Assembly (NCBI GenBank): GCA_039555135.1
Contig: CP114179.1
Location: 2,480,001-2,544,000 of the forward strand
Direction of reading: 5' to 3'
Source: Phycisphaeraceae bacterium D3-23
GTDB taxonomy: Bacteria; Planctomycetota; Phycisphaerae; Phycisphaerales; Phycisphaeraceae
DNA: 64,000 bases
Below the pieces are notes generated by a model. It saw only the letters and a program-made list of their open reading frames with translations, ran no database searches and was not told the origin of the DNA. The translations under genes and the position numbers were made by a program. Of the stretch, positions 4,351 through 60,796 are shown piece by piece. Positions within the stretch are counted from its first letter, which is position 1; each line of letters begins with the position of its first letter.

Positions 4351-4375
4351 CCCACAGATGTAATCTGTGGGCTTC
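4351..4375 (+). repeat. REP-like hairpin
   Basis: CCCACAGAT, a 3-nt loop, ATCTGTGGG, then CTTC. This is the window's REP-like consensus with a one-sided GAAG/CTTC foot. It is intergenic, 45 nt past the stop of the small minus-strand gene, and may double as its terminator. Confidence 0.7.
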
Positions 4376-6402: not shown

Positions 6403-6454
6403 GAAGCCCACAGATTCCATCTGTGGGACACCCACGGAAGAAATCCGTGGGCTC
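6403..6454. repeat. Inverted pair of REP-like hairpins (BIME-like)
   Basis: First unit 6403-6427 has its foot on the left (GAAGCCCACAGAT, loop, ATCTGTGGG). Second unit 6431-6454 has CCCACGGA, loop, TCCGTGGG, then CTCC on the right. The opposite orientation and the 3-nt spacing resemble enterobacterial BIMEs. It lies between the FKBP gene and oppA. Confidence 0.65.
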
Positions 6455-29226: not shown

Positions 29227-29251
29227 CCCACGGATGGCATCCGTGGGCTTC
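29227..29251 (+). repeat. REP-like hairpin after lpxI
   Basis: CCCACGGAT, GGC loop, ATCCGTGGG, CTTC, 2 nt past the lpxI stop. It could act as a terminator between lpxI and the convergent Nramp gene. Confidence 0.7.
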
Positions 29252-35615: not shown

Positions 35616-35640
35616 CCCACGCATGCAATGCGTGGGCTTC
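35616..35640 (+). repeat. REP-like hairpin
   Basis: CCCACGCAT, GCA loop, ATGCGTGGG, CTTC. A family member with different inner stem bases, retaining the one-sided foot. Confidence 0.6.
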
Positions 35641-56668: not shown

Positions 56669-56749
56669 CCCACGGATAAAATCCGTGGGCTTCGCGTCAG
56701 AAACTCATGACGCTGTTGTGACCCGAAGCCCACAGATTCCATCGGTGGG
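56669..56749. repeat. Inverted pair of REP-like hairpins
   Basis: Unit 56669-56693 (CCCACGGAT, AAA, ATCCGTGGG, CTTC) and the opposite unit 56725-56749 (GAAGCCCACAGAT, TCC, ATCGGTGGG). The 31-nt spacer and the flanks include TCGGGTCA / TGACCCGA, a further inverted match. Confidence 0.7.
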
Positions 56750-57863: not shown

Positions 57864-57919
57864 GGGGTCAAGGGTAGCGGGTTGCGCCCGGGAAACCAAG
57901 GGTGGGATACAAGGCGGCA

Positions 57920-57999
57920 CCCACAGATGGAATCTGTGGGCTTCGTGGGAGAACAAAGAGGAATGCTTCTGCTCGAAGCCCACGGATTTTATCCGTGGG
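57920..57999. repeat. Inverted REP-like pair downstream of the RAYT gene
   Basis: Unit 57920-57944 (CCCACAGAT, GGA, ATCTGTGGG, CTTC) and the opposite unit 57975-57999 (GAAGCCCACGGAT, TTT, ATCCGTGGG). The RAYT stop codon TAA lies inside the second unit, at its loop. Confidence 0.8.
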
Positions 58000-58573
58000 T
58001 GTTGTCTTGAGGAGAATCGCTTTGCTGATCCTTGAACGTCCACACGGCGGCGCCTTGCTGGGCGTGCCTTTGGATGTAGCGGAAGACGTTGACCTGGTGC
58101 GAGCGGTCGGTGATGGGGACGATCTTGCCTTTGCGGGCCCAGACGCCGCCGGGCTCGGCGAGGCCGGCGGCGACGAGGGCTTTGGCGGACTGCTTCTTGG
58201 CGATGCCGAGGTAGTGGCGCGGCGGGTCGGCGACGCCGTCGCGGGGCTCGAAACGTGCGAGGACGTGGAGGTGTTCGTTACTCACCGCGGCGCAGAGGAA
58301 CTCGATGTGATGGAACCCGAAGGCCTCGACGATCGCGACGATCGCGACGAGCGCGCTGCGTTGCGCGGACGTGTTGAGCACGATGGGTGGGCGACGCATC
58401 TTGTTCTGGGCGGCGGTGTGGAGCCCGTCGTACTTGCCCGCGGGGGGCGGGTTTTTGTAGTCGCCTTCGGCGTGTTCGCGGTGGTGTTTGGTGCGGAAGC
58501 CGCGCGGGTCGCCGGGGAGCCAGGTGCCGAAGGTGTTTGCCATGCAGTGGTACCAGTGGTGCCATGCGGGCAT
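57989..58573 (-). CDS. REP-associated tyrosine transposase (RAYT, Y1/HUH family)
   Basis: The 194-aa protein begins HHWYHCMANTFGTWLPGDPRG, an opening common to IS200-like Y1 transposases. It has an HUH motif HLH (His101, His103, in SNEHLHVLARF) that binds the catalytic metal, and a C-terminal helix with the candidate nucleophile Tyr166 in FRYIQRHAQQG. There are no IS200/IS605-type partner genes, and the gene is single and flanked on each side by an inverted pair of REP-like hairpins. That is the hallmark of a domesticated RAYT, which cuts and mobilises REP DNA as single strands. The start at 58573 has AAGGA about 10 nt upstream. The last codons and stop are provided by a REP. Confidence 0.8.
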   Translation of the reverse strand: MPAWHHWYHCMANTFGTWLPGDPRGFRTKHHREHAEGDYKNPPPAGKYDGLHTAAQNKMRRPPIVLNTSAQRSALVAIVAIVEAFGFHHIEFLCAAVSNEHLHVLARFEPRDGVADPPRHYLGIAKKQSAKALVAAGLAEPGGVWARKGKIVPITDRSHQVNVFRYIQRHAQQGAAVWTFKDQQSDSPQDNTHG

Positions 58574-58599
58574 GGGGTGGTCCTTGAGGGGAAGGGACA

Positions 58600-58667
58600 C
58601 CCACAGATGGAATCTGTGGGCTTCGATGATCGCTTGATTGTTGAAGCCCACGGATTTTATCCGTGGG
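58600..58667. repeat. Inverted REP-like pair upstream of the RAYT gene
   Basis: Unit 58600-58624 (CCCACAGAT, GGA, ATCTGTGGG, CTTC) and the opposite unit 58643-58667 (GAAGCCCACGGAT, TTT, ATCCGTGGG). Both units match the downstream pair 57920-57999 base for base in the stems and loops, in the same order. Confidence 0.8.
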
Positions 58668-58687
58668 TGGGTGCTGCGGATCGGTTC

Positions 58688-58930
58688 TTACTGCGGGATC
58701 AGGTCGGCGTATTTGTTTTTGAAATCTTCGAGGGAGTCGATGCCTTGGGGGAGGGTGGCCTGGTCCATGAGGAGAACGGGGATGCCGTCTTTGATGGGGT
58801 AGCGCAGCCCGGCACCCTCGGGTTTTTGGGCGATGAGCCAGTCGCCTTCCTGTTTGAGTTCGCTGCGCGTGAGGGGGCAGACGAGGATGGCGAGGAGTTT
58901 TTCGTCGAGGGGCTGGGGGTTGGTGGTCAT
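58688..58930 (-). CDS. Trm112/YcaR-like small protein
   Basis: The 80-aa protein has the Trm112 (UPF0434) pattern: LDEKLLAILVCPLTRSEL, then LRYPIKDGIPVLL. Only one Cys of the usual zinc-binding pairs is present, so zinc binding is doubtful. Trm112 in eukaryotes activates methyltransferases; the bacterial role is not known. The start at 58930 follows TACAAT by 7 nt, so it is probably leaderless; an ATG three codons upstream overlaps that box. Confidence 0.75.
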   Translation of the reverse strand: MTTNPQPLDEKLLAILVCPLTRSELKQEGDWLIAQKPEGAGLRYPIKDGIPVLLMDQATLPQGIDSLEDFKNKYADLIPQ

Positions 58931-58937
58931 GGTCGTC

Positions 58938-58943
58938 ATTGTA
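58938..58943 (-). promoter_or_regulatory. -10 hexamer TACAAT, leaderless start
   Basis: Minus-strand TACAAT, 7 nt before the ATG at 58930, no ribosome site. A REP-like hairpin (58956-58980) lies immediately upstream. Confidence 0.5.
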
Positions 58944-58955
58944 AATAAAGAAGCA

Positions 58956-58980
58956 CCCACAGACGGAATCTGTGGGCTTC
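58956..58980 (+). repeat. REP-like hairpin downstream of murA
   Basis: CCCACAGAC, GGA, ATCTGTGGG, CTTC (one stem mismatch). It lies between the murA stop and the Trm112-like gene. Confidence 0.7.
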
Positions 58981-59011: not shown

Positions 59012-60610
<1,599 letters not shown>

Positions 60611-60796
60611 GGTGTCGGGTCTTGGGGTTGGGGGCTGGGGTTTCGTCCGAAAAAATCGGATACACACGGATCATCGGCAAGCCGAATCAGTCTGCGCCAC
60701 CGAGGTGTACGCTTCATGGTACAACCTGCAACGGCGGGGCAATCCTCCGCGCCAAGTTATCCCCCGCGACCCGAAACCCGGCAACCCAGACCCGCC

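Follow-up and report, generated by a model that had tools for sequence, protein, structure and literature searches.

The window, a stretch of 64,000 nucleotides from the genome of Phycisphaeraceae bacterium D3-23, carries on its minus strand a 194-aa open reading frame (ORF; 58573..57989, with ATG at 58573 and the stop codon TAA at 57989-57991) that is predicted to encode a RAYT-like Y1/HUH transposase with the HUH residues His101 and His103, Trp145, Tyr166 and a YIxxH motif. An in-frame GTG at 58651, within the outer upstream REP, would give an alternative protein of 220 aa that reads through the REP at 58600-58624. The neighbouring genes are DUF3500, Trm112-like and murA, and tnpB is absent among the adjoining genes scanned. 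The Trm112-like gene (90 aa, 58688-58960) stands beside the transposase gene, and in murA (59012-60667) we noticed by eye an extra low-complexity stretch (approximately residues 95-160) ahead of the part that matches the MurA model (162-547).

Around the transposase gene stand four hairpins with a 9-bp stem, a 3-nt loop and a GAAG foot, which form two inverted pairs with their feet inward. Hairpin CCCACAGATGGAATCTGTGGG is found at 57920-57940 and again at 58600-58620, and hairpin CCCACGGATTTTATCCGTGGG at 57979-57999 and again at 58647-58667, each with GAAG (or CTTC) adjoining. In the downstream pair, the outer REP (57920..57944, minus strand, arm CCCACAGAT, loop TCC) shows its GAAG foot as CTTC on the plus strand at 57941-57944, and the inner REP (57975..57999, plus strand, GAAG-CCCACGGAT, loop TTT) holds the stop codon of the gene. 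The upstream pair consists of the REP on the start-codon side (58600..58624, minus strand, arm CCCACAGAT, loop TCC, foot 58621-58624) and an outer REP (58643..58667, plus strand, GAAG-CCCACGGAT, loop TTT). In foot orientation the TCC-loop REP reads GAAG-CCCACAGAT-TCC-ATCTGTGGG. A first-pass annotation of this DNA had described two identical inverted REP pairs, and this holds for stems, loops, feet and order but not for the spacers between the hairpins, which measure 38 and 26 nt. Its statement that the REP on the 3′ side encodes the stop codon was borne out, as TAA at 57989-57991 is part of hairpin 57979-57999; among the 43 loci of the window gene’s group with a hairpin downstream, the same is seen in 5, of which the window gene is one. 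The placement of the gene between two inverted hairpin pairs is confirmed.

The same hairpin recurs in the window beyond the immediate flanks of the gene. A third feet-inward inverted pair of the same composition (56669..56749) lies 1.2 kb downstream of the gene, its second member (56729) having one mismatch, and a lone REP with one stem mismatch and a CTTC foot (58956..58980, minus strand) sits between the Trm112-like gene and murA. Dispersed copies were located at 4351..4375 and 29227..29251 (both on the minus strand), together with a close pair with feet outward at 6403..6451 (6407 exact, 6431 with one mismatch) and a REP-like hairpin with another inner stem (ACGCAT; 35616..35636, two mismatches to the core). 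Allowing up to three mismatches, the hairpin core has 13 matches in the window vs 0.08 expected, and none of 100 shuffles reached 13. Folding as single-stranded DNA gave z-scores of −6.8 and −5.3 for two single REPs and of −6.6 and −9.7 for the pairs, and Rfam returned nothing at gathering scores between 56500 and 59100.

Standard protein models said little about the enzyme: the window protein had no match in Pfam or NCBIfam at E-values up to 1, one PHROG match (transposase, E 0.31) and, by phmmer against PDB sequences, matches at chance level only (E 0.38 and above), which made a search by fold necessary. The AlphaFold model, built from an alignment of 34 members, has a mean pLDDT of 89.7, and a Foldseek search of the PDB ranked the E. 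coli RAYT-REP hairpin complex first (4er8, E 1.5e-4), ahead of IS200, IS608, Sulfolobus and ISDra2 transposases; six structures matched it at E 0.001 or better, all of them Y1 enzymes. VIA-align placed IS608 chain 2vju at Z 12.4 (104 residues, 2.3 Å), with IS608 and ISDra2 at Z of about 12, and 4er8 at Z 10.4 (129 residues, 3.9 Å), the latter tied with an unrelated Thg1 chain (9.9); in its list only entries of the IS200 type stand clear. H101, H103, Y166 and H170 are invariant in all 34 aligned members, and Ile167 is kept in 90% or more. The predicted fold and these residues agree with the earlier reading of the 194-aa product as a Y1/HUH protein with Tyr166 as its candidate tyrosine, and support an enzyme of RAYT-like kind. 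Some relatives of the window protein are within the reach of existing models: NCBIfam NF047646 (REP_Tyr_transpos) matches 21 of the 34 aligned members at E 0.01 (best 3.1e-9, the window protein not among them), the NCBI IS200 model matches 4/34, and Pfam Y1_Tnp matches 16/34 at E-values up to 10 (best 2.2e-9). At E 0.01, Pfam recognised none of the window protein and the 10 REP-flanked relatives tested, and 4 of the 10 proteins tested from a REP-poor group of the family; a Y1_Tnp search of this genome at the same cut-off found four places, among which were neither the window gene nor two other REP-flanked paralogs.

The genome-wide count proposed in the first-pass annotation returned 88 exact hairpin copies in the 4.62-Mb genome, against none for the reversed-pattern control. 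For 65 exact copies read with their flanks, each site being oriented by its better foot, GAAG adjoins the hairpin on exactly one side in 59 and on both sides in none; the remaining six match three of the four foot letters on one side (GTAG in one of them) and no more than two on the other. The foot is preceded by C in 51/65 copies and the loop begins with T in 61/65. Given the one-sided foot, the preceding C and the first loop base, the repeat is oriented: cGAAG-CCCACRGAT-TNC-ATCYGTGGG. The consensus given earlier (GAAG foot, CCCACRGAT arm, 3-nt loop, ATCYGTGGG) stands as to its GAAG foot, but the genome contains several inner-arm types side by side, of which this is one. Of the 15 distinct dispersed feet-outward pairs that we saw, 14 have their members only 1-6 nt apart, and the second member often has another inner arm, while all three feet-inward pairs that we saw lie in the window, near the gene. 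REP sites avoid called genes (17/65 inside vs 52.7 expected), where the gene calls come from a simple codon-usage script that leaves some in-gene sites doubtful (57920 and 58600 were called in-gene). The genomic stretches in which copies were read had been picked by pattern matches and are uninformative on density.

Hairpins of this kind might instead be ordinary transcription terminators or stabilisers of mRNA 3′ ends, next to which the gene lies by accident. Many REPs, by eye, stand about 20-60 nt past a called gene; in tandem-gene intervals the foot strand equals the gene strand at 26 of 32 sites (P 0.0005; 22/28 among sites with an exact foot); and a T-rich tail follows on the 3′ side of 12/65 copies, compared to 3/65 on the 5′ side and a background of about 1%. 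The other 53 copies have no T-rich 3′ tail, however. Conservation extends to the loop T and to the GAAG foot, even though the latter forms no base pairs here, and hairpins with matching inner arms occur on both sides of family genes and even inside the coding sequences of relatives (see below). We consider it improbable that termination explains the repeat, and reject it as the main account as the T-rich 3′ tail is found in a minority only; the concern that these might be mere terminators lacking a conserved foot is answered by the one-sided GAAG. Given the 12 tailed copies, some REPs may well have acquired a terminator function.

To place the gene in its family, we collected 99 distinct loci (130 before identical coding sequences were removed) from genomes of relatives and from named genomes, the latter contributing the best 80 of 187. 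By name these 80 are planctomycetes, bar a few labelled Leptolyngbya, Vicinamibacteraceae, Nealsonbacteria or simply “bacterium”. Family genes L078, L059, L084 and L126 come from metagenome-assembled genomes with the first three of these labels, and are probably planctomycete contigs under wrong names. A short sequence motif divides the family into a REP-bearing group (VE, 74 loci including the window gene) and a REP-poor group (SS, 25 loci), a split that is approximate since the two labels need 5 and 4 changes on the protein tree. The tree itself was built by a quick method and is weakly supported at many forks, with 28 of 110 inner branches starred; the one grouping that we took from it places the window gene with L006-L012, L035 and L055 (support 89, below the starred level). 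An AAGCCC-type hairpin lies within 200 nt of the gene in 57/74 loci of the window gene’s group and in 3/25 of the other. Hairpin density, counted without those 200-500 nt from a gene, is 3.9 per kb up to 200 nt and 0.16 per kb past 500 nt in the larger group, and 0.9 and 0.06 per kb in the smaller.

Across the clade the outer arm, (G)AAGCCC, is near-constant, whereas inner bases and loop differ from gene to gene. Using the best pair where a locus has several hairpins, the inner five bases were identical upstream and downstream of the gene in 25/37 loci (shuffled mean 2.6, maximum 10), in-gene and downstream in 9/13 (shuffled 1.1), and upstream and in-gene in 7/15 (shuffled 1.1), with P 0.0002 in each case, and loci with higher protein identity also have more similar inner arms (Mantel rho 0.354, P 0.0005, 53 loci). 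Two loci, L010 and L008, share one hairpin type between the in-gene and downstream positions and have another upstream. The in-gene hairpins are of the AAGCCC type and occur, one or two per gene, in the coding sequence of 17/74 loci of the window gene’s group and 0/25 of the other; the window gene itself has none. By position, these 20 hairpins lie mostly between the HUH motif and the tyrosine. Eight of them read AAG CCC ACG nnn nnn nnn CGT GGG, which encodes K-P-T-x-x-x-R-G-(L or T), five are 22-nt hairpins set one frame over (S-P-(G or R)-x-A-x-(P or R)-G-L), and the other seven are less regular. Judged from the sequences, the use of two reading frames suggests that insertion took place more than once.

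The searches turned up five family members in this genome, three of which are flanked by distinct hairpin types: ACRGAT with a single foot at the window gene, ACGCTC with a double foot at paralog L035 (26 genome copies, three at the gene) and a GGGGGT-like type at paralog L036. No flanking hairpin type was found for L037, and the fifth member, L038, is broken. Matching between gene and inner arm was clear for ACGCTC: the two genomes in which we read an ACGCTC-flanked gene have 26 and 12 copies, of which 3 and 2 stand at the gene, and the other 59 genomes have 4, 1 and 0. The type ACGTTC has 17 copies in G018, 13 in G048 and 8 in G060, and 1-7 copies in nine other genomes; an ACGTTC-flanked gene is present in G048 and G060 but is not among the two family loci read in G018, where the type is commonest. 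Strict one-to-one matching, which we had entertained, therefore does not hold cleanly for ACGTTC.

To ask whether the repeat follows the gene across genomes, we compared two overlapping samples, with hairpin excess defined as the number of AAGCCC-N11-16-GGGCTT matches over a reversed control; the E-value cut-off of the first sample and the excess cut-offs of 10 and 20 were our own choice. In the first sample (61 genomes including this one, the family gene being scored as present at E 1e-20 or better), the median excess was 22 in the 32 genomes with the gene vs 4 in the 29 without it (P 7e-8). The first-pass annotation had held that gene-less genomes equally rich in hairpins would speak against the link; far fewer of them are rich (excess of at least 10 in 4/29, compared to 27/32 with the gene), although there are four exceptions (G031, G001, G027 and G016). 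The window’s own footed consensus, counted as oriented matches in which a double-foot site scores twice, reached at least 10 matches in 7/31 gene-bearing relatives vs 0/29 others, and at least one match in 11/31 vs 3/29. In the second sample (393 planctomycete genomes, family-proper genes at E 1e-30 or better, eight first-look candidates scored per genome), an excess of at least 20 was found in 11/30 genomes with a family-proper gene vs 5/363 without. Of the latter, G134, G106, G376 and G389 have weaker Y1 matches, and G220 has no Y1 match at E 1e-10. G052, conversely, has the family gene and no hairpin excess.

Gene loss or assembly gaps may explain the four gene-less genomes of the first sample that have a hairpin excess. 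When eight relatives without an initial match were searched with a profile, four matched at E-values up to 1: G031 and G027 at E 7.8e-14 and 6.7e-9, by matches that are partial or class-3-like, and G038 and G047 at about 0.05 only. In G031, type AGGCAT (AAGCCCAGGCAT) accounts for 31 of the 47 hairpins, and the only Y1 genes detected are a class-3-like one and a weaker fragment, which points either to REPs left without their gene or to a gap in the assembly. Such genomes lend something to the idea that a different agent, such as one of the other Y1 enzymes of the genome, spreads the hairpins and that the gene merely hitch-hikes between them, as do the presence of other Y1 enzymes in this genome and the richness of G018 in a type unseen at the family genes read there. 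Gene-specific inner arms that recur upstream, in-gene and downstream, and whose similarity rises with protein identity, are hard to fit with it, and we regard it as very unlikely. An ordinary IS200/IS605-type insertion sequence that ends in these hairpins, with the dispersed copies as decayed or miniature elements, would account for the Y1 fold, the hairpins on both sides and the long inverted repeats made by the feet-inward pairs, but is highly improbable and was rejected because near-identical gene copies are lacking (the closest paralog in the genome has 53% identity), the neighbours named above include no tnpB, and the hairpins far outnumber the gene.

Two other kinds of Y1 element were met in these genomes. 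Class-3-like Y1 domains of about 150 aa lie in frame within long ORFs of housekeeping enzymes, and in all seven ORFs tested Pfam recognised host domains on both sides of the Y1_Tnp match; the hosts are valyl-tRNA synthetase (L234, L236, L243 and L246), leucyl-tRNA synthetase (L237), alanyl-tRNA synthetase (L239) and PurH (L242). The same arrangement was seen by eye in L240 and L241 (valyl-tRNA synthetase) and L244 (PurH). Inverted repeats, which differ in sequence between loci (CGAGCCGCGACCGTGAGGGAGCGG in L234), frame the Y1 domain in all five loci examined for them (L234, L237, L239, L242 and L246). This looks like the intein-style lodging of a REPtron in tRNA synthetases, of which the titles and abstract openings of the literature searched make no mention. 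The other group of Y1 proteins, with the motifs HIVKSxYGxWLPGDxRGHW and YIxRH, was noted in L249 and L233 (genomes G029 and G041); in these two of the four loci examined, AGCCGCGGAT-NNN-ATCCGCGGCT hairpins stand at the gene, and none were found in L248 and L250. We read this hairpin as a further REP type in the same bacteria.

Taken together, we hold it to be quite probable that the locus belongs to a REPtron-like system, in which a RAYT-kind Y1/HUH transposase works with its cognate dispersed GAAG-foot hairpins. The first-pass annotation, which saw here a planctomycete counterpart of the RAYT/REP systems with its own consensus, was essentially right, and the system is larger than it described, in that the REPs track the gene across genomes, with exceptions, and the type flanking a gene tends to be specific to it. 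The basis for this model is the predicted fold, the catalytic residues, the oriented dispersed repeat, the gene-matched flanking and in-gene hairpins and the co-occurrence across genomes. By analogy with published REPtrons, the low-copy enzyme would recognise a folded single-stranded hairpin with a GAAG foot, binding both foot and hairpin through foot and loop contacts like those described in the available text of PMC8266576; Tyr166 would nick near the hairpin, and the enzyme would join REPs or REP pairs to new sites by strand transfer. Foot bases have been shown to guide cleavage in one published enzyme, for which AG was proposed to select a CT site (PMC8266576, as far as its available text goes), and since AG is retained in GAAG, a C|T site guided by the foot is predicted here, while the columns listed beside the 65 sites hold no fixed CT dinucleotide. 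Cognate REPs would in this way have spread to mostly intergenic sites, often just downstream of genes. Since the outer arm AAGCCC is near-constant and the inner arm and loop differ between paralogs, the latter most likely set which enzyme works on which repeat.

A more far-reaching proposal, which we put forward tentatively and think somewhat more likely to fail than to hold, is that the hairpin forms a two-part address, composed of an outer arm common to the clade and an inner arm and loop private to each enzyme, which in some members has been copied into their own coding sequence between the HUH motif and the tyrosine. A change of repeat type would then rewrite the flanks, the linker peptide and the dispersed population together, and several enzyme-address pairs would coexist on one chromosome as separate systems.

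One close counterpart is the E. coli TnpAREP/RAYT REPtron (group 2; PDB 4er8), which shares the Y1/HUH fold, REPs around the gene, a GxAG foot 5′ of the hairpin and dispersed REPs. It differs in its foot (GTAG, here GAAG), in REPs that need a bulge according to the available text of PMC8266576 (here a perfect 9-bp stem) and in its tyrosine motif (NP, here YIxxH), and the conserved N-terminal TYGxWLPGDPRG / GDYKxPPP region of the present clade further sets it apart. In hairpin shape the group 3 REPtron of Stenotrophomonas maltophilia is similar, with an 8-bp perfect palindrome and a 3-nt loop with a critical base (PMC8266576, in the text available) where we find 9 bp and a 3-nt loop beginning with T, and this species also has several element-specific transposases per genome (PMC3733652, likewise); its foot, however, is GTAG and its tyrosine motif YI[VI]ANP (subclass 2.5). 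REPs with tyrosine transposases have also been reported for R. baltica (PMC3733652, available text). As R. baltica is a planctomycete, planctomycete REPs as such are not novel.

Within the classification of Quentin et al. 2018 (PMC6006769), as far as its available text describes the classes, TnpAY1 subclass 2.4 shares double-foot REPs and in-frame REPs between the HUH motif and the tyrosine, but has GT[AG]G feet and the motifs NH[IFV]H, WQ and YIxNNP and is abundant in Cyanobacteria and Bacteroidetes. Class 3 resembles the present system in its planctomycete distribution, high-copy hairpins and atypical foot, and proteins whose motifs led us to assign them to class 3 reach 48-72 bits against our family profile and share the YGTWLxGD.RG region; the class as published has the motifs NHVH and YV[VI][AENY]EQ and a CnGA foot, compared to cGAAG here, and the inverted repeats that bound the class-3-like loci we read differ in sequence from ours. 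The GAAG foot is thus neither the GTAG or GTGG of the published class 2 REPs, nor CnGA, nor CGTC, and “GAAG” at the start of a word does not occur in the main texts of PMC6006769 and PMC3733652; the recognition study in PMC8266576, by its available text, covers three enzymes, all with GTAG repeats. YIxxH likewise departs from the NP-ending motifs of the class 2 subclasses (Table 1 of PMC6006769). On sequence grounds, then, the clade is RAYT-like, is marked by a GAAG foot and YIxxH, and by its tyrosine motif fits none of the eleven TnpAY1 subclasses given there; we recognised no description of it among the titles and abstract openings listed from the open-licence literature. The class survey was gated by Pfam Y1_Tnp at E 0.01 (PMC6006769, available text), a threshold that the window protein and 10/10 REP-flanked relatives fail, and the REP-rich planctomycete branch was therefore probably passed over. 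Our analysis extends a known selfish repeat system to a branch largely missed by standard protein models, and with three family genes with distinct REP types in one genome and dozens of natural pairs in which the inner arm differs and the outer arm stays, it makes enzyme-REP specificity directly testable.
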